From assembly GCF_000152985.1 (NCBI RefSeq), contig NZ_CH672395.1:2610461-2674460 (forward strand): a stretch of DNA of 64,000 nucleotides. The letters run 5' to 3'. Below, one piece after another: positions 51,196 through 59,776 of the stretch. The notes beneath the pieces are model-generated. The model saw nothing but the letters and a program-made list of their open reading frames with translations. It was not told where the DNA came from and ran no database searches. Made by a program: the position numbers and the translations under genes. Numbering within the stretch: position 1 is the stretch's first letter; every line of letters starts with the position of its first letter. Origin of the DNA: Leeuwenhoekiella blandensis MED217 (lineage in GTDB: Bacteria; Bacteroidota; Bacteroidia; Flavobacteriales; Flavobacteriaceae).

Positions 51196-54100
51196 TTAAA
51201 ATTTTAATTGAACCCCTAACATGGTTGTCATAGGTCTTGGATAGGTACCAAAATCAAAACCAGGATTTAAGACACCAGCTTGAAAATCTGGATTATATCC
51301 TTTGTATTTTGAAAGAACAGCAACATTCTGCAAAGTCACATAAAACCTTGCGCTAGACATTGAAATTTTACTGATAAAATCATTAGGAAGACTGTATCCT
51401 AAAGAAATCGTATTGATTCTAAAGTAATCTCCGTCTTGTAACCATCCCGGTCTGTTAGAGTTTCGGCCATTTTGGTTAGGATCTCCAAACACTACTCGTG
51501 GCACAGTGGTATTGGTATTATCTGGCGTCCAACGATTTAAAATATCCTCGTGCCAGTTAGTATATCCAGAAGTAGGCATTAGACCGCGATATAAGTTACT
51601 GTTGATCAAGTTACCTCCACTTCCTTGTCCGAAAATGGTAAAGTCAAAGTTTTTATATCTGGCCGTAATATTGATCCCGTAATAATAGGTTGGCAAGCCC
51701 TGACCTAAGAAGGTACGGTCTGCATCATTAATTACGCCATCAGGAGTTCCGTCAGGTCCGCTTATATCTCTAAATTTGATATCTCCAGGACGTGTACCAG
51801 GCTGTTGCGTTGGTGAATTTGCTATTTCATCATTTGTTTGAAATATACCGTCATACACCCAACCATAATGTTCACCTAAAGAACGACCAACGATATTTCT
51901 CGAGCCTGTACCGCTAATAAAATCTTGGTTACCTATATCTAGTATTTCATTCTTTACGGTATAGAAGTTTGGAGCGATTTCAAATGAGAAATCATCACCA
52001 ATGAACTGTCTGTAAACCGCAGATAATTCTATACCTGAGTTTCTAATAGATCCTGCATTTGACAAAATCTCAGAGTTAAATGCACCCACAATATTTGTAA
52101 AAGGAACCGGAATATTTACCAAAACGTCTTCTGAAGTGTTTCTGTAGTATTCTGCTGTAAAATCTAGACCTCCATTAAACAACGAAGCATCAAGACCAAT
52201 ACTGCTAGTTCTTCTGGTTTCCCATCTGATGTCCTCATCAATAAGTTGGGTTACAGCAGAACCAATAACCGTTGGACCTCCAGAAAATTGATAAGGAATA
52301 CCTCTGTTAACAGTTCTTTGGAATAGGTAGTTTCCAATTTCTTGGTTACCTACTTCACCCCAACCACCTCTTAATTTAAGGCTTGTAATAAAGTCTGGTA
52401 ATTCAAATTCATTGTGAATTTTCCAAGCAGCAGAAACCGATGGGAAAAATTCATAACGCACATCAGGGTTGAATCTTGACGAACCATCATATCGTATGTT
52501 ACCTGTAAAGAAATACTTGTCATCAAAAGAGTAATTCACCCTTCCTAAATAAGAATACAAAGCAGACTCCTGAATATTGTCAAAAACACTAAAGTCTGTA
52601 GCGTTTTCCAAGTTCTTGATATAAGGCGCTGTCAAACCTCCACCTACTGTTGTAATGGCTCTAAAATTATCTTTTTGATACGTTTGCCCTACTAATACAG
52701 ATAGGTTGTGCTTGTCAAATTCCTTGTTGAAGTTAATCGTGTTTTCGATCAAAAATCGATCTATGTTAGTATTAACCACACGTAACTGCGCCAATGGATT
52801 TGGGAAAAAATACCCCAAGTCATATTCCGGAACAAATAATTGCCCTTCAATATTAGTTGTGTTATAAGATGCACTAGACTTTAGAGCTAAACCTTCGATT
52901 GGTTCAAATTGCAAATACAAATTGGCATTTAATCTATTTACCTTAGATTCATTCTCAACTAATGTATTTATACCTGGTACGTTAAGCGTGATAGACTGAT
53001 GTACGGTTGCATCTGCACCTCCAAATCCTCCTAAACGATTTGGATCTCTTAATGGTATAGTTGGCGCTGCTTGTAATAAGTCGTTCACTAATGTTGGTCT
53101 ACCTCCAGGTAAATTGATAGAAGCAGTGTTGAATAAAGGATTTTCGTCTGAACGCACAAAGAACATATTCTCACCAATAGTAAATTTACCAACTTCAGCT
53201 TCAGTATTTACTCTAAAAGAGTAGCGTGTATAATTTGGACCTTGTCCTACTAACGTTCCTTGGTTGTCTAAGTAATCGAGAGAGACAAAATAGGTTGTGT
53301 TCTCAGTACCACCGGCAGCATTAAGGTTATGATTCTGAATAAAACCTGAAGTATAACCTTCATCTTGCCAATCTGTATTAATATCATCTATAAAACTTGG
53401 CGAGTTAGGATCATTCCCTAAAGGAATTGGTGTTAATGCTGCACCAGCAGGAAGTTGTGCATTACCATTATTAATCAACTCTCTATTGATAGTCTGATAT
53501 CCTTCTCTATCAAGAAGCGGAAGCTTCTGCGTGATGTTCTGAACACCATAGTAAGATGAAAGATTAAAGGTGAGTTTTTGTCCTTTTTTTCCACCCTTAG
53601 TGGTAATAATGATAACACCATTACCTGCTCTGTTACCATAAATAGCACCTGCAGATGCATCTTTCAATACCTGAATTGACTCGATATCGTTAGGGTTAAC
53701 ATCTCTAATCCCGTCTACAGGAACGCCATCAACAACATATAAAGGCTCTGCACTCGCGCCTATACCAAAAGTTGCCACACCTCTAATACGAACACTAGGA
53801 GCTGCACCTGGCTGACCATCACTGGTAATAGTTACACCAGCAACACGACCTTGCATCATTTGAGTCACATCATTTGAGGCTTGCTTGGTCATTTCCTCAG
53901 TATCTACAACGCTCACGGCACCGGTTAGATCTGACTTTCGCTGTGTACCATATCCAACTACAACGACTTCGTCAAGATTTGACAAAGCTTCTTCGAGGGT
54001 AACGGTAAGCGAGGTTTGATCCCCTACAGTAATGCGTTGTTCTTGAAATCCAAGGTAGGTAAACACTAATACATCGTTTGCGCTAGCTTGAATAGAAAAA

Positions 54101-54327
54101 TTACCGTCAAAATCGGTAACAGCACCGGTAGTAGTCCCCTCTACAAGAACGTTTACTCCGGGAATAGGCATATTACCATTTGAAGACAGGACAGTACCTG
54201 TAATGGTCTTGCTTTCTTGTGCTTGAGCACTCACCAAAGGTGCTAAAACAACTGCGAGAAGAAATATCCCTTTCTTAAAGAGAAATTTAAAAACGCAAAG
54301 ACAATCATAAAGTTTGTTTTGCTTCAT
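51196..54327 (-). CDS. SusC/RagA-family TonB-dependent outer membrane transporter
   Basis: 1043 residues. A long N-region with a membrane segment and cleavage near VSAQAQ is followed by a carboxypeptidase-D-like N-terminal extension (TGTVLSSNGNMPIPGVNVLV to LDEVVVVGYGTQ, about 40-130), where DEVVVVGYGTQ is the SusC signature before the plug. The plug (about 130-245) has RIRGVATFG and DASAGAIYGNRAGNG. A 22-strand barrel follows, ending in the aromatic C-terminus (MLGVQLKF). It imports arabinan oligosaccharides across the outer membrane with energy from TonB. It is the first gene of the operon. Confidence 0.97.
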   Translation of the reverse strand: MKQNKLYDCLCVFKFLFKKGIFLLAVVLAPLVSAQAQESKTITGTVLSSNGNMPIPGVNVLVEGTTTGAVTDFDGNFSIQASANDVLVFTYLGFQEQRITVGDQTSLTVTLEEALSNLDEVVVVGYGTQRKSDLTGAVSVVDTEEMTKQASNDVTQMMQGRVAGVTITSDGQPGAAPSVRIRGVATFGIGASAEPLYVVDGVPVDGIRDVNPNDIESIQVLKDASAGAIYGNRAGNGVIIITTKGGKKGQKLTFNLSSYYGVQNITQKLPLLDREGYQTINRELINNGNAQLPAGAALTPIPLGNDPNSPSFIDDINTDWQDEGYTSGFIQNHNLNAAGGTENTTYFVSLDYLDNQGTLVGQGPNYTRYSFRVNTEAEVGKFTIGENMFFVRSDENPLFNTASINLPGGRPTLVNDLLQAAPTIPLRDPNRLGGFGGADATVHQSITLNVPGINTLVENESKVNRLNANLYLQFEPIEGLALKSSASYNTTNIEGQLFVPEYDLGYFFPNPLAQLRVVNTNIDRFLIENTINFNKEFDKHNLSVLVGQTYQKDNFRAITTVGGGLTAPYIKNLENATDFSVFDNIQESALYSYLGRVNYSFDDKYFFTGNIRYDGSSRFNPDVRYEFFPSVSAAWKIHNEFELPDFITSLKLRGGWGEVGNQEIGNYLFQRTVNRGIPYQFSGGPTVIGSAVTQLIDEDIRWETRRTSSIGLDASLFNGGLDFTAEYYRNTSEDVLVNIPVPFTNIVGAFNSEILSNAGSIRNSGIELSAVYRQFIGDDFSFEIAPNFYTVKNEILDIGNQDFISGTGSRNIVGRSLGEHYGWVYDGIFQTNDEIANSPTQQPGTRPGDIKFRDISGPDGTPDGVINDADRTFLGQGLPTYYYGINITARYKNFDFTIFGQGSGGNLINSNLYRGLMPTSGYTNWHEDILNRWTPDNTNTTVPRVVFGDPNQNGRNSNRPGWLQDGDYFRINTISLGYSLPNDFISKISMSSARFYVTLQNVAVLSKYKGYNPDFQAGVLNPGFDFGTYPRPMTTMLGVQLKF

Positions 54328-54549: not shown

Positions 54550-55248
54550 ATGACTGATGTTCTTAATAATTACAATTCTGAAGACAAAGTACTTCTTGCC
54601 GTAGATTGTATCATTTTTGGATTTGACCAGGAAGACTTAAAAATCTTGTTGGTTAAGCGGGATTTTGAACCCGAAAAAGGCAAATGGTCTTTGATAGGTG
54701 GATTTCTAAAAAGAACAGAAACACTTGACGACGCTGCCAACCGCATTTTGCACCATCTTACAGGTATTGATAAAATCTACATGGAGCAGCTTTACAACTT
54801 TAGTAAGGTAGATCGTGATCCGGCTGAACGTACACTTTCTGTTGCTTATTATGCGCTTATCAATATAGAAGACCACGACAAAGATTTGATTGAACAATAT
54901 TCTGCAAAATGGTTCAGTATAGACAAAGCTCCGTCGCTCATCTTTGACCATGATGCGATGGTAAACAAGGCGATCTTAAGATTACGCAGACGTGCAATTT
55001 CAAAACCTATCGGTTTTGAATTACTTCCAGAAAAATTTACGATGCGCCAGCTACAGAAACTTTATGAGTCCATTCTTAATGAAAAACTAGATAAGCGTAA
55101 CTTTATCAATAAAGTTAATGGTCTCGATGTCCTCGTTAAGCTTGAAGAGAAAGACATGTCTTCTTCCAGAAAAGGCTCGTATCTCTATCAATTTGATAAA
55201 GAAAAATACGATCGTAATGTAGAAGACGGCATTACATTTAAAATTTAG
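54550..55248 (+). CDS. araR: Nudix-fold transcriptional regulator of arabinose use (AraR/NrtR type)
   Basis: 232 residues. Residues 1-145 form a Nudix domain: KVLLAVDCIIFGFD, then a Nudix box G51-x5-E57-x7-R65 in which the three catalytic Glu of REUXEE are I66, H69 and L70, so hydrolysis is not expected. Residues 150-232 are a winged-helix domain (PEKFTMRQLQKLYESILNEK, then RKGSYLYQFDKEKYD). In Bacteroides, AraR of this type represses arabinose genes and is released by L-arabinose; that is established for that family. It is divergent from the 14-gene operon it would control. Confidence 0.9.
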   Translation: MTDVLNNYNSEDKVLLAVDCIIFGFDQEDLKILLVKRDFEPEKGKWSLIGGFLKRTETLDDAANRILHHLTGIDKIYMEQLYNFSKVDRDPAERTLSVAYYALINIEDHDKDLIEQYSAKWFSIDKAPSLIFDHDAMVNKAILRLRRRAISKPIGFELLPEKFTMRQLQKLYESILNEKLDKRNFINKVNGLDVLVKLEEKDMSSSRKGSYLYQFDKEKYDRNVEDGITFKI

Positions 55249-55312: not shown

Positions 55313-55360
55313 GTTTTGTTGAAGTTTTTACAAATTCTATTAAACAAAACTGTACTTTTG
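55313..55360 (+). promoter_or_regulatory. Candidate promoter and operator for the carotenoid operon
   Basis: TACTTTTG at 55353-55360 is an exact TAnnTTTG -7 box, 28 bases before the ATG at 55389. Just upstream a perfect 8-bp inverted repeat GTTTTGTT (55313-55320) / AACAAAAC (55343-55350) has a centre-to-centre distance of 30 bases, about three DNA turns. It is a plausible binding site for the MerR/B12 regulator. Confidence 0.45.
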
Positions 55361-55388: not shown

Positions 55389-56294
55389 ATGAATACGGTA
55401 AAATCAACGTTTAGCATCAAAGACCTAGAAAGTTTTGGTGGCATAAAAGCCCATACGATTAGAATGTGGGAACGTCGATACAACCTTTTAGAACCGGAGC
55501 GAACTCCTACCAACATTCGCACCTATTCTCTCGAAGATCTTCAAAAATTGCTCAACGTGACCTTCTTACTGGATCACAATTTTAAAATTTCGAAGATTGC
55601 AAAAAACTCGAGTGATGAAATCGCTTCTTTAGTTGCAGAAATTGTTGAAGAGAAAGATCTGGGAACTAATCATCACGCAATCAATTCGTTTAACATCGCG
55701 ATGATGAATTTCGATCAGCGCTTGTTTTCTCAGACCTATAATCAATTGCGAAAAACCCTTGATTTTAGGTCCGTATTTTTTGAGGTTTTCATTCCGCTTT
55801 TAGAAAAAATCGGGCTTTTATGGCAGGCCGGAGTTGTTAATCCTGCACACGAGCATTTCATTTCAAATCTTATTAAACAGAAGATTTTGATCAATCTTGA
55901 TGCCTGTTCAGAAACAACTTCAAAAGAGACTGACAAGATATTTATTTTGTTTCTCCCTGAAAATGAAATTCACGATTTGGGATTGATGTTCCTCAATTAT
56001 GAGCTTGAATCCAGAGGTTATAAGTGTGTTTATCTGGGACAGAATATGCACATTGAAAATCTGAAATACATCGTAAACACACAGCACAATCCACACTTCA
56101 TTTCCTATCTTACGGTAAATCCTTGTGATACAAGCGTAAAACAGTTTGCTGAAGATTTTAACAAAACGATTGAAGAAGAAAATATCCCCTTATATCTAAT
56201 GGGAAGAATTGTTCAGAAAGTTGATCAAAAAGAACTTCCTGCTAATGTTCAAATTTTAAAAACTATAGACGCTTTAACTGCGACGCTCAACTGA
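55389..56294 (+). CDS. MerR-type regulator with adenosylcobalamin-binding domain (CarH-like)
   Basis: 301 residues. The N-terminal MerR helix-turn-helix shows KAHTIRMWERRYNLLEPERT (about 20-39) and RTYSLEDLQKL. A helical cap domain (about 95-170) contains W145-x9-E155-H156, the Wx9EH motif that cups the upper cobalamin face in CarH. A Rossmann B12 domain (about 182-300) has E193-x-H195-x-x-G198, the lower axial His motif. CarH-type proteins repress carotenoid genes in the dark as AdoCbl tetramers and release DNA in light. It sits 5 bases before crtI, in the same transcript, so autoregulation by light is likely here. Confidence 0.88.
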   Translation: MNTVKSTFSIKDLESFGGIKAHTIRMWERRYNLLEPERTPTNIRTYSLEDLQKLLNVTFLLDHNFKISKIAKNSSDEIASLVAEIVEEKDLGTNHHAINSFNIAMMNFDQRLFSQTYNQLRKTLDFRSVFFEVFIPLLEKIGLLWQAGVVNPAHEHFISNLIKQKILINLDACSETTSKETDKIFILFLPENEIHDLGLMFLNYELESRGYKCVYLGQNMHIENLKYIVNTQHNPHFISYLTVNPCDTSVKQFAEDFNKTIEEENIPLYLMGRIVQKVDQKELPANVQILKTIDALTATLN

Positions 56295-56299
56295 TATTT

Positions 56300-57760
56300 A
56301 TGCCAAAAAAAATCACCATACTAGGATCTGGATTTTCTTCACTTGCCGCTGCAAGTTATCTGGCGCAAGCCGGTCACGAGGTTCACGTCTATGAGAAAAA
56401 CAGCAGTTTAGGAGGGAGAGCCAGACAATATAAACGAGACGGATTCACGTTTGATATGGGGCCGTCCTGGTATTGGATGCCTGATGTTTTTGATAGGTTT
56501 TTTGCAGATTTTAATAAGAAGACCTCGGATTTTTATGCGTTAGAAAAGCTCAATCCTGCATACCGCGTTTACTTCGGTGAGAACGATTCGATACTTATCG
56601 AAGATTCTCTAGAAAAAATCAAAAAGACTTTTGAAGCTATTGAGCCCGGAAGTGCACAAAAGCTTCAGGAATTTATAGATGATGCGGCAGATCATTATGA
56701 GGTTGCCATTAAAGACTTAGTATATCGTCCGGGCGTCTCTCCTCTAGAACTTGTTACTCCGGCAACGATCAAAAGAATTGGAAGCTTTTTTAGTACGATT
56801 AGCAAAGATGTGCGTAAAGCTTTCAAAAACCCCAAATTAATTGAAATACTAGAATTTCCGGTGCTCTTTTTAGGTGCTAAGCCTAGCGACACCCCTTCCT
56901 TTTACAGTTTTATGAACTTTGCCGATTTTGGCATAGGCACCTTTCATCCACAAAAAGGAATGCACGCCGTCATTGAAGGTATGGTACAACTTGCCAAAGA
57001 ATTAGGTGTGCATTTGTACACAGACAGTCCTGTAGAACGCATTTTAACCGAAAATAAAAAAGCTATTGGAGTTCAGATCAATGGAGAAGAAATTCTTTCT
57101 GACATCGTATTGAGCGGCGCAGATTATCACCATACAGAAACCTTACTTCCAGAAGCACTGCGTCAATATTCTGAAAGTTATTGGGATTCAAAGACATTTG
57201 CTCCATCTTCATTATTATTTTACGTAGGCTTTGATAAAAAATTAGAACGTGTTAATCATCATACGCTCTTTTTTGATACCGACTTTGAAAAGCATGCAGT
57301 TGAAATATACGACAAACCAAAGTGGCCAGAAGCCCCACTTTTCTATGCTAATTTCCCTTCGATAACCGATGCCAGTATGGCTCCCGAAGGAAAAGAAGCG
57401 GGATTCTTTCTTATACCCTTAGCTCCGGGAATTGAAGATTCTGAAGCACTTAGAGCGCAATATTTTGAAATTATAATGAACAGGCTTGAAAAGCTTACCG
57501 GACAAACGGTCAAAAAAAACATTATATTTAAAGAGTCCTTTTGTGTCAAAGACTTTGTAGAACAGTACAATTCATACAAGGGTAACGCTTACGGATTAGC
57601 AAATACGTTATTACAGACTGCGTTTTTAAGACCAAAATTAAAAAGTAAAAAGGTAGACAACTTATACTTTACAGGTCAGTTAACGGTTCCCGGTCCGGGA
57701 GTGCCTCCTGCACTGATTTCCGGTAAACTTGTGGCCGGTCTAATAACAAAAAATGACTAA
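56300..57760 (+). CDS. crtI: Phytoene desaturase (CrtI-type)
   Basis: 486 residues. FAD-binding dinucleotide fold at the start: ILGSGFSSLAAASYLAQAGH, followed by VYEKNSSLGGRA and the phytoene motif FTFDMGPSWYWMP. The C-terminal CrtI signature is NLYFTGQLTVPGPGVPPALI followed by SGKLVAGL. The enzyme introduces four double bonds into 15-cis-phytoene to give lycopene at the membrane. Its position right after the regulator and 9 bases before crtB is the usual flavobacterial order. Other flavoprotein desaturases (ketolases) share motifs, but crtB next door favours CrtI. Confidence 0.92.
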   Translation: MPKKITILGSGFSSLAAASYLAQAGHEVHVYEKNSSLGGRARQYKRDGFTFDMGPSWYWMPDVFDRFFADFNKKTSDFYALEKLNPAYRVYFGENDSILIEDSLEKIKKTFEAIEPGSAQKLQEFIDDAADHYEVAIKDLVYRPGVSPLELVTPATIKRIGSFFSTISKDVRKAFKNPKLIEILEFPVLFLGAKPSDTPSFYSFMNFADFGIGTFHPQKGMHAVIEGMVQLAKELGVHLYTDSPVERILTENKKAIGVQINGEEILSDIVLSGADYHHTETLLPEALRQYSESYWDSKTFAPSSLLFYVGFDKKLERVNHHTLFFDTDFEKHAVEIYDKPKWPEAPLFYANFPSITDASMAPEGKEAGFFLIPLAPGIEDSEALRAQYFEIIMNRLEKLTGQTVKKNIIFKESFCVKDFVEQYNSYKGNAYGLANTLLQTAFLRPKLKSKKVDNLYFTGQLTVPGPGVPPALISGKLVAGLITKND

Positions 57761-57769
57761 GAAAAAGAA

Positions 57770-58609
57770 ATGAAACAAATTTTTGACAATGTATCGCAAG
57801 CCTGTTCGGAAACGGTAACACGATCCTACAGCACATCATTTTCAACAGCAACCCGAATGCTGGCTCCCAGCATCAGACAACACATACATAACATTTATGG
57901 CTTTGTACGTTTTGCTGATGAGATCGTAGACACGTTTCATGCATATGATAAAGAAACGCTCTTCAATCGTTTTGAGCAGGATCTTGAAAATGCTCTAAAT
58001 GATAAGATCAGTCTTAATCCTATTCTCAATTCATTTCAGTATACTTTTCATAAGTTCAAAATAGAAAAACACTTGGTTGATGCTTTTATGCACAGTATGC
58101 GACTCGATCTTTCTAAAAGCAAATACCTTACTCAGGAAGAGTATAATAACTATATCTACGGTTCTGCTGATGTCGTTGGACTTATGTGTCTCACAGTTTT
58201 TGTGAAAGGTGATCGTCAAAAATATGAAGAGCTTAAAGAAAGTGCGATGAGTTTAGGCTCTGCTTTTCAAAAAGTTAATTTCCTTAGGGATCTAAAAGCA
58301 GATTTTGAGGAGTTGAGTAGAACCTATTTTCCTAATACCGATCTCAACGAATTAGACGAAGTTTCAAAACAAAAAATTATTGAAGAAATTGAGGCAGATT
58401 TTGCAAAAGGTCTTTCGGGGATTTGTAAATTGCCTGTAGAAGCTAAATTTGGCGTCTACACGGCATACCGTTACTACCGAAAATTACTGAGTAAATTAAA
58501 AAGTACGCCTTCTTTAGAAATCAAAAATGCGCGCATACGTGTTCCTAATTATGTTAAGGCTTCACTTTTAGCACGCAGCTATGTAAAATACAGACTAAAC
58601 CTAATTTAA
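57770..58609 (+). CDS. crtB: Phytoene/squalene synthase (CrtB)
   Basis: 279 residues. The two Asp-rich substrate motifs of trans-isoprenyl diphosphate synthases are present: FVRFADEIVDTFH (DEIVD, about 41-53) and VNFLRDLKADFEEL (DLKAD, about 167-180). RSYSTSFSTATRML near the N-terminus and YGSADVVGLMCL in the middle are typical of CrtB. It condenses two geranylgeranyl diphosphates to phytoene. It is 9 bases downstream of crtI and 1 base upstream of crtZ. Confidence 0.95.
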   Translation: MKQIFDNVSQACSETVTRSYSTSFSTATRMLAPSIRQHIHNIYGFVRFADEIVDTFHAYDKETLFNRFEQDLENALNDKISLNPILNSFQYTFHKFKIEKHLVDAFMHSMRLDLSKSKYLTQEEYNNYIYGSADVVGLMCLTVFVKGDRQKYEELKESAMSLGSAFQKVNFLRDLKADFEELSRTYFPNTDLNELDEVSKQKIIEEIEADFAKGLSGICKLPVEAKFGVYTAYRYYRKLLSKLKSTPSLEIKNARIRVPNYVKASLLARSYVKYRLNLI

Positions 58610-58610
58610 A

Positions 58611-59063
58611 ATGCAAACCCTTCTTTGGATCGTAGTTTTCCTGCTTACCTTCACGATTATGGAATTTATGGCTTGGTTTACCCATAAGTACGTCATGCAC
58701 GGTTTTTTATGGGTGTTGCACCGCGATCATCACCATAAAGATCACGGCTCGTGGTGGGAGCGCAATGATTTTTTCTTCATCTTTTATGCGCTTATAAGTA
58801 TAGGATGTTTTCTCCTGTGGCAATACGAAAATGTTTGGATAGGCTTGCCAATTGGTCTTGGTATCTTTGCTTACGGCTTTACCTATTTTATGGTTCACGA
58901 TATCTTTATTCATCAGCGCTTTAAACTTTTTAGAAATGCCAATAACTGGTACGCCAAAGGCATTCGTCGCGCACACAAAATACATCACAAGCATTTAGGT
59001 AAAGAGGATGGAGAGTGTTTTGGAATGTTGCTTCCTCCTACAAAATACTTCAAAACTAAATGA
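58611..59063 (+). CDS. crtZ: Beta-carotene 3-hydroxylase (CrtZ)
   Basis: 150 residues, membrane-bound fatty acid hydroxylase superfamily. The di-iron His boxes are visible: FTHKYVMHG, LHRDHHHKDHG, VHDIFIHQRF and IRRAHKIHHKHLGKEDGE. Four hydrophobic stretches span the membrane. It hydroxylates beta-ionone rings to make zeaxanthin, so the strain is expected to be yellow-orange. Its last 4 bases overlap the next gene. The cyclase (crtY) that must act before it is not in this window. Confidence 0.95.
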   Translation: MQTLLWIVVFLLTFTIMEFMAWFTHKYVMHGFLWVLHRDHHHKDHGSWWERNDFFFIFYALISIGCFLLWQYENVWIGLPIGLGIFAYGFTYFMVHDIFIHQRFKLFRNANNWYAKGIRRAHKIHHKHLGKEDGECFGMLLPPTKYFKTK

Positions 59064-59776
59064 GTTTTCTCACAGCATCTTGGAAGAAACTCTGCTTTGT
59101 CAATTATGCTATTGATCCGGCTATTTTAGAGCCTTATGTACCTGCGCACACCGAGCTTGATTTTTTTGAAGGTAAGTGCTATGTAAGTCTCGTAGGTTTT
59201 TTGTTTGATGATGTAAAACTGAAAGGAATTACCATCCCTTTTCATAAACGTTTTGAAGAGATTAATTTGCGTTTTTACGTCAAGCATTTTGACGGCTCTC
59301 AATGGAAACGCGGCACGGTATTCATTTCAGAAATTGTTGAAAAACCCGCTATTGCTTGGGTTGCTAATACACTGTATAATGAGAAATACAGCGTGCATAA
59401 AATGCACTATAAACACGATTTGACCGAAGAGGAAAATTTTATCAGCTATGGTCTGGATCTAGAAGAGAACTGGCAGCTTATTCAAGTTGCGACAAGCCCG
59501 GAACCCGAACCCTATGAGCAAGGAAGCATCACCCAATTTATTACCGAACATTTCTGGGGTTACAGCTACAAAACACCTACAACAAGCTGGGAATATGAAG
59601 TACGACATCCGCTATGGAAATCTTATAAAATCCTTGATCACGAAATCGTTTTCGACTTTGCAAAACTCTATGGAGATGATTTTCAAGACTTAACCACTGC
59701 TCAACCTGACAGTATTCAATGTATGGATGGTTCTGCGATAAGTATTGAAGGTAAAAAGTTGATCAAAGGCAATTAG
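59060..59776 (+). CDS. DUF2071 (YqjF-like) protein
   Basis: 238 residues, no signal peptide. The DUF2071 pattern is seen as LTASWKKLCFVNYAIDPAIL, LEPYVPAHTELDFFEGKCYV (in part), SLVGFLFDDVKL, INLRFYVKH and the FWGYSYK segment near 185. The family is widespread and has no established reaction; its fold is acetoacetate-decarboxylase-like, so lipid or small-molecule binding is a possibility. Overlap with crtZ by 4 bases (ATGA) means translation coupling and suggests a role linked to the carotenoid genes. It ends 2 bases before the convergent bshC end. Confidence 0.85.
   Translation: MSFLTASWKKLCFVNYAIDPAILEPYVPAHTELDFFEGKCYVSLVGFLFDDVKLKGITIPFHKRFEEINLRFYVKHFDGSQWKRGTVFISEIVEKPAIAWVANTLYNEKYSVHKMHYKHDLTEEENFISYGLDLEENWQLIQVATSPEPEPYEQGSITQFITEHFWGYSYKTPTTSWEYEVRHPLWKSYKILDHEIVFDFAKLYGDDFQDLTTAQPDSIQCMDGSAISIEGKKLIKGN

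Follow-up and report, generated by a model that had tools for sequence, protein, structure and literature searches.

Among the closest described relatives of the system considered here are the class I LitR regulators, or CarH proteins, known from Thermus thermophilus, Bacillus megaterium and Myxococcus xanthus. In a review, the definition of CarH rests on two motifs: Wx9EH and ExHx2Gx41SxV/Tx22-27GG (PMC8156234; papers are cited by PubMed Central accession and for the parts of their text that were available). An operator of 11-bp direct repeats, as described for CarH of Thermus and Bacillus, is typical and not defining. In the T. thermophilus protein (TtCarH), His132 caps the cobalt after photolysis (PMC10442372). 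Among flavobacteria, Chryseobacterium lacus makes carotenoids in the light and none in the dark, by a mechanism that its authors call unknown (PMC7064467). We analyzed a stretch of 64,000 nucleotides from Leeuwenhoekiella blandensis MED217 (contig NZ_CH672395.1; the whole stretch is called the window), in which a MerR-type regulator gene heads a carotenoid (crt) operon. A preliminary description of this DNA had proposed that the regulator switches carotenoid synthesis, and its own gene, in response to light by using cobalamin.

We consider it likely that this regulator is a CarH-type light-dependent repressor that controls a sunlight regulon in Flavobacteriaceae. The comparative evidence consists of conserved residues, an inverted repeat with a fixed spacing, a site at the regulator's own promoter, the co-occurrence of sites and regulator across genomes, and the recurrence of the same genes next to the sites. 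In the proposed mechanism, the regulator bound to adenosylcobalamin (AdoCbl) would assemble in the dark and occupy TTTGTTTAA-N16-TTAAACAAA, overlapping or flanking the -7 promoter element, so that its own crt operon is off. Light would break the Co-C bond, the oligomer would dissociate, and the genes would be turned on; without B12, the target genes would be on whatever the light. Dark repression and its release by light or by lack of B12 are steps that we infer from the CarH literature. The regulon would probably include photolyase, cryptochrome-DASH, TetR-ABC1 and fasciclin genes and, where present, proteorhodopsin. We lean slightly toward a broader proposal, in which a CarH clade without the terminal GG serves Flavobacteriaceae as a B12-dependent master light switch and one 34-base repeat couples carotenoids, photoreactivation and proteorhodopsin phototrophy. 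If this is true, B12 supply in these B12 scavengers would decide whether light-driven energy capture is light-gated or always on, and marine phototrophy would be tied to B12.

The regulator and its carotenoid operon

The regulator and the genes that follow it are laid out as follows.

55389..56294, + strand: probable CarH-type MerR/B12-binding regulator, 301 amino acids (open reading frame [ORF], Pfam, PDB match, residues and fold)
56300..57760, + strand: crtI, phytoene desaturase (Pfam; above the cut-off of NCBIfam CrtID, desaturase/3,4-desaturase)
57770..58609, + strand: crtB, phytoene synthase (Pfam SQS_PSY, 4.2e-45)
58611..59063, + strand: crtZ-like beta-carotene hydroxylase (His clusters and position)
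59060..59776, + strand: DUF2071 protein, the final gene of the apparent operon (ORF, Pfam)

Pfam recognized a MerR domain (MerR_1, E = 5.8e-13) and a helical cobalamin-binding domain (B12-binding_2, E = 9.7e-10) in the regulator. Its best sequence match in the PDB is TtCarH, with an alignment that ends at residue 228, and a profile built from relatives also places TtCarH first, only up to profile position 231. Using the window protein and 32 named relatives as input (33 rows), we obtained an AlphaFold model with a predicted local distance difference test (pLDDT) score of 86. Over 195-197 residues, model residues 93-301 matched the TtCarH cobalamin domain with a Z score of 20.7 and a root-mean-square deviation of 2.4, and full-length TtCarH heads the Foldseek list. 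In this model, residues 184-301 form a Rossmann half. Thus, Pfam and the model together give a MerR domain fused to a helical bundle and a Rossmann fold. The structural matches also include methionine synthase and AppA, and a shared fold by itself shows no function.

We counted conservation over 81 aligned sequences, the window protein included. The Wx9EH residues singled out in the preliminary description (W145, E155 and H156) are present in the 301-amino-acid ORF and are kept in 81, 81 and 77 sequences, respectively. Its ExHxxG residues (E193, H195 and G198), which make up the part of the second motif with the lower axial His, are present as well, and E193 is kept in 80 and H195 in 78 of the sequences. 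Because W145, E155, H156, E193 and H195 are kept in so many of the aligned sequences, they are not there by chance. The rest of the second motif departs from the definition: the regulator has x40, S-x-L, x30 and then Gly-Arg. Furthermore, the residue after the Trp, which corresponds to TtCarH His132, is Gln146, and Gln stands here in 57/81 aligned sequences and in 78 of 80 named relatives. The earlier claim that the key AdoCbl contacts are kept therefore stands for Wx9EH and ExHxxG and falls for the motif's GG and for the second His ligand of TtCarH.

Several properties of the protein weigh against a CarH-like function, as do the genomic results gathered further below. The regulator was not matched at E <= 1e-3 by PF02310, which we take to be the Rossmann B12-binding model and the equivalent of IPR006158. 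It scores 80.8 bits with the NCBIfam CarH model NF052513, widely missing the curated cut-off of 400. Only 3 of the 81 aligned sequences end the B12 motif in GG, and the window protein has Gly-Arg. Finally, TtCarH with the H132A exchange, at the position that is Gln here, is largely tetrameric still after light (PMC10442372). The missing GG and the score below the NCBIfam cut-off keep the regulator out of CarH in the strict sense. A CarH-like way of working is nevertheless likely, and we therefore use the label CarH-type; the regulator is probably of this type, as judged from sequence and model, and probably functions like CarH. It would then be a natural CarH without two features held important for cobalamin binding and photoswitching.

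The loss of GG, the Gln in place of His132 and the unmatched PF02310 would also suit a regulator that binds B12 and works without it, with light acting via a partner protein. Such cases exist: Myxococcus CarA binds B12 without requiring it (PMC8156234), and Pseudomonas class II LitR is driven by a LOV partner (PMC9758184). However, the B12 independence of CarA can largely be accounted for by its missing Wx9EH (PMC8156234), and the window regulator carries that motif, with Trp and Glu kept in 81/81 sequences and H156 in 77/81, and so falls outside the CarA-like class. Similarly, class II LitR keeps the four-helix bundle only (PMC9758184), whereas the regulator is modeled with the Rossmann half as well and so does not fit that class. 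No LOV gene lies in the crt operon, to which this search was limited, the rest of the genome not being searched. We regard the B12-independent explanation as unlikely, and a CarH-type, AdoCbl-using repressor accounts better for the residues that are kept.

The genes of the operon are tightly packed. The regulator ends at 56294 and crtI starts at 56300, so the 5-base gap given in the preliminary description is confirmed; crtI and crtB are separated by 9 bases and crtB and crtZ by 1, and crtZ and the DUF2071 gene overlap by 4. A convergent bshC comes after the DUF2071 gene. CrtI scores 731 against a cut-off of 640 for the NCBIfam "bifunctional phytoene desaturase/3,4-desaturase"; this result, Gln146, the Gly-Arg in place of GG and the operator-like repeat described below were all absent from the preliminary description. 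The crtZ-like ORF had no match in Pfam or NCBIfam, and its His clusters are presumably a crtZ-type signature. The crtI gene lies directly 3' of the regulator in 78 of the 80 named relatives, and the regulator of Leeuwenhoekiella palythoae DSM 19859, from the same genus, is 82% identical to that of the window. Clusters of crtI-crtB-crtZ have been reported (PMC5887021 and PMC7064467).

An NrtR/AraR-like Nudix regulator lies just upstream of the regulator gene (54550-55248), divergent from a 1043-amino-acid ORF (51196-54327) that looks SusC-like, and a relative is found within 1.5 kb upstream of the regulator in 8/13 genus loci. Three metagenome-assembled genomes labeled Klebsiella pneumoniae, Rhizobium sp. 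and Bifidobacterium breve carry a flavobacterial-type regulator, which crtI adjoins in two of the three; the labels look wrong.

The operator-like repeat and its sites across genomes

Upstream of the regulator gene we found the following elements.

55315..55323, + strand: predicted operator arm 1, TTTGTTGAA (inverted repeat, spacing conserved in 13/13 genus loci)
55340..55348, + strand: predicted operator arm 2, TTAAACAAA (inverted repeat, spacing conserved in 13/13 genus loci)
55353..55360, + strand: -7 box TAnnTTTG, as in Bacteroidota promoters (a block of alignment columns conserved in the 13 genus loci)

The repeat, TTTGTTGAA-N16-TTAAACAAA at 55315-55348, lies 4 bases ahead of the -7 box TACTTTTG; we take TAnnTTTG to be the -7 consensus of Bacteroidota promoters. 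The window contains a single copy with 0 mismatches, the one at the regulator promoter, and looser copies occur at chance level. On either strand, TTTGTTTA was present in 42 of 53 regulator upstream regions, compared with a mean of 2.84 and a maximum of 6 in shuffles. We then scanned spacings of 0-40 for two inverted half-sites, TTTGTTTAA/TTAAACAAA, at a threshold of at least 15/18 matches. A spacer of 16 was found in 13/13 genus loci and 28/40 other loci (shuffle mean, 0.17). Among 80 named loci, which overlap in part with the first 53, 64 had spacing 16 (shuffle mean, 0.95) and 67 had spacings of 15-17 (shuffle mean, 2.15). Direct and everted half-site pairs, scanned as a control, gave nothing to rival the N16 inverted repeat: direct pairs with an 11-base period were found in 0/13 genus and 6/40 other loci and those with a 10-base period in 11/40 other loci (shuffles, at most 3). 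The place of this conserved repeat at the regulator's own promoter fits the autoregulation that had been proposed.

The complement of the half-site core TGTnnA, TnnACA, occurs in the Thermus CarH repeat (repeat from PMC8156234). In many other genera, arm 1 and the -7 box have TTTG in common and arm 2 lies over the start codon (ATGAACAA); there, the operator would thus span both promoter and first codons. This overlap, seen at many of the loci outside the genus, would couple residues at the N terminus to DNA recognition. In a distant clade with another recognition helix, TGTCTAA is found upstream in 5/7 loci (shuffle mean, 0.18), and a second distant clade has TGTATAA in 5/6 loci (shuffle mean, 0.96, but reaching 5); the change of motif alongside the recognition helix in the two clades weakly fits co-change. 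Judged by their coordinates, two genera have an extra operator copy at the regulator-crtI junction (genome G048, C2:63367; genome G054, C5:79629), suggesting a second regulated promoter.

To locate sites genome-wide, we scanned the 13 genus genomes with the pattern TTTGTTNAAN{10,22}TTNAACAAA, using the reversed pattern as a control. This yielded 29 sites in 10/13 genomes, compared with 1 for the reversed pattern. Three sites were judged to be chance (L144, L156 and L157), and the other 26 precede recurrent genes: crt operons (7), fasciclin-domain proteins (7), a flavin reductase/cryptochrome-DASH/photolyase-related operon (4), an SRPBCC/photolyase operon (3), an unknown membrane-like protein (3) and the rhodopsin/blh pair (2). 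The membrane-like protein, of about 205 amino acids, follows the operator in three genus members, and the copy in one of them (L150) had no Pfam match.

For 119 relatives we used a strict form with spacing 16/17. There were 92 strict sites, 90 in the 80 regulator-positive genomes and 2 in the 39 regulator-negative ones, and the reversed pattern gave 6, split 4 and 2. Strict sites thus occurred in 44/80 regulator-positive versus 2/39 regulator-negative genomes, with a P value of 2.7e-8 that overstates independence because the genomes are related, the regulator-negative ones also being often small. Outside the genus, 40 sites, part of the strict-site set, were classified, and 22 of them precede fasciclin (15), TetR-ABC1 (4), photolyase (2) or cryptochrome (1) genes. 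The gene class seen most often after the operator is that of fasciclin-domain proteins, at these 15 loci and at seven others.

In the L. blandensis genome, crt, cryptochrome-DASH and fasciclin genes have strict sites, and sites with one mismatch stand before msrA-folE, an SRPBCC/SDR/photolyase operon and a TetR-ABC1 operon. The msrA-folE site is the only one of its kind, in this genome, and msrA-folE is not a recurrent target. Another one-mismatch site, at C1:185217, has no target gene attributed to it. We rejected a perfect match at C1:3714104 and sites L144, L207, L217 and L219, all of which are inside coding genes; L217 and L219 are in the same kind of gene and so likely reflect shared codons. 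Pseudomonas class II LitR regulons contain photolyase, cryptochrome and folE (PMC9758184), so the predicted targets are in keeping with a light regulon of the LitR/CarH kind; rhodopsin and the fasciclins would be additions. The earlier picture of control over the crt operon mostly agrees with what the sequence shows. It was drawn too narrowly, because further light-related genes carry this repeat.

Another regulator might instead bind the repeat, with the CarH-type gene merely one of its targets. The TetR of the TetR-ABC1 operon is one example, as that operon carries sites outside the genus and TetR is found in 56/119 genomes. However, regulator-positive genomes without TetR still have sites (15 sites, in 8/27 genomes), the three genomes with TetR and no regulator have 1 site, and the half-site core equals that of TtCarH. 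We find this explanation improbable and keep the CarH-type regulator as the protein that would bind the repeat.

Proteorhodopsin and cobalamin supply

The L. blandensis genome has no PF01036 match, and the rhodopsin claim therefore concerns its relatives. Among 299 family genomes, 69 have a close relative of the genus rhodopsin, and 66 were counted. Those dropped had too short an upstream region (G126), a partial gene (G163) or a gene at a contig edge (G243); four genes with one in-frame stop were kept (G196, G223, G307 and G353). The regulator-negative status of 9 of the 13 regulator-negative rhodopsin genomes rests on their absence from the list of 242 matches. Rhodopsin promoters of regulator-positive genomes reached at least 16/18 in 35/53 cases and at least 15 in 43/53, versus 3/13 and 6/13 in regulator-negative genomes (P = 0.010 at the higher threshold, a value that again overstates independence because the genomes are related). 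Genome G068, among others, has a perfect site before its rhodopsin gene. In a first sample, which did not include L188 (a partial match below the cut-off), 11/14 proton-pump genes from regulator-positive genomes of families f1 and f7 were above shuffles at P <= 0.02. None of 2 NQ-type rhodopsins, which we take to be sodium pumps, had the operator. In families f6, f8, f11 and f14, the f1-type repeat was not clearly found before the rhodopsin gene (best, 15/18; P = 0.03), and the motif there, by eye, may be TGTATAA. In two genus members (L153:3051-4763 and L147), a single operator lies between a rhodopsin gene (Bac_rhodopsin) and the divergently oriented blh (beta-carotene dioxygenase).

Pumping in native cells has been reported for Sediminicola sp. 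YIK13 (cited in PMC4732338), and proteorhodopsin expression in Dokdonia MED134 is reported to be enhanced by light (PMC3380642). As of 2012, a rhodopsin regulator was known in no organism other than the Vibrio of the paper that said so (PMC3380642), and the 2013 paper on Dokdonia PRO95 held that regulation needs further work (PMC3587595). Among the matches listed in our literature search, there was no study of a Flavobacteriaceae B12 photoreceptor and no link between CarH and rhodopsin; subscription papers, including two Dokdonia light studies, were outside its scope. With a defined candidate operator and regulator, light regulation of proteorhodopsin becomes directly testable.

As for cobalamin supply, L. 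blandensis has a PduO-type adenosyltransferase, MetH and one cobalamin riboswitch. The riboswitch precedes a TonB receptor that adjoins periplasmic, FecCD permease and ABC genes, and the locus is likely a B12 uptake cluster; it spans C1:1693729-1699939 and also encodes a DUF5074 protein. The adenosyltransferase was found in 77/80 regulator-positive versus 26/39 regulator-negative genomes.

The genomic points on the other side are these. No strict site was found in 36 of the 80 regulator-positive genomes, 3 of the genus among them. Of the 40 sites classified outside the genus, the remaining 18 comprise 3 in coding genes, 13 before genes without an evident light role and 2, in two genera, before a small protein that we take, by eye, to be DUF2452-like. 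In L. blandensis itself, the sites of all targets beyond crt, cryptochrome-DASH and fasciclin have one mismatch, and such sites count for little alone. Allowing up to 2 mismatches there gave 51/55 against 42/42 for the reversed control, which is little enrichment, so enrichment in this genome is confined to the strict fixed-spacing form. At the rhodopsin gene, 18/53 regulator-positive genomes fall below 16, and 3/13 regulator-negative genomes, with assemblies 73-81% complete, reach at least 16. One regulator-positive genome (G020, 99% complete) has no PduO-type adenosyltransferase by the model used. In addition, proteorhodopsin expression in Dokdonia PRO95 is reported to be constitutive (PMC3380642, PMC3587595).

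That the repeat is a mere A+T-rich promoter element (the -7 TAnnTTTG plus T/A-rich DNA) and no operator seems very improbable to us: arm 1 and the -7 box do share TTTG in many genera, and many rhodopsin promoters have TAnnTTTG between the arms, but genus promoters have a -7 box of their own, downstream of the repeat; the 16-base spacing is constant, where shuffles give a mean of 0.17; and sites track the regulator across genomes. A light-dependent CarH-type repressor acting at this repeat remains the reading that we prefer.

Comparison with known systems

Flavobacterial crt clusters with a "MerR family regulator" have a similar gene order (PMC4732338, PMC5887021, PMC11855829). These three papers, in the text available, name the gene only, without B12, an operator or a regulon.

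With class I CarH, the window regulator shares the MerR, helical and Rossmann domains, Wx9EH and ExHxxG, as well as a link to carotenoid genes and a predicted promoter-overlapping operator with the TnnACA core. It differs in having no terminal GG and in having Gln for the second His ligand. Furthermore, the N16 inverted repeat dominates here, whereas the known operators are 11-base direct repeats (PMC8156234).

CtMerR of Chloracidobacterium and the photocobilins resemble the regulator in lacking a His beside the Trp; CtMerR has Arg and the photocobilin SasPcob has Gln at this position (PMC11796333). Because both are reported photoreceptors, Gln146 has a precedent. CtMerR and photocobilins are also structural matches of the regulator model, with Z scores of 18.5 and 18.9. 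Unlike the photocobilin signature GxxH given by SignatureFinder (PMC11796333), the regulator has NxxH, with N192 in 57/81 aligned sequences. The SignatureFinder survey mined IPR006158 proteins (PMC11796333), whereas the window regulator is without a PF02310 match.

Finally, the class II LitR proteins PplR and PmlR of Pseudomonas control a light regulon whose members include photolyase, cryptochrome, folE and SDR genes (PMC9758184), similar to the one predicted here. They have the four-helix bundle only and act with LOV partners (PMC9758184), whereas the regulator described here has both halves of the cobalamin-binding region, and its predicted regulon would add proteorhodopsin and fasciclin genes to the set.

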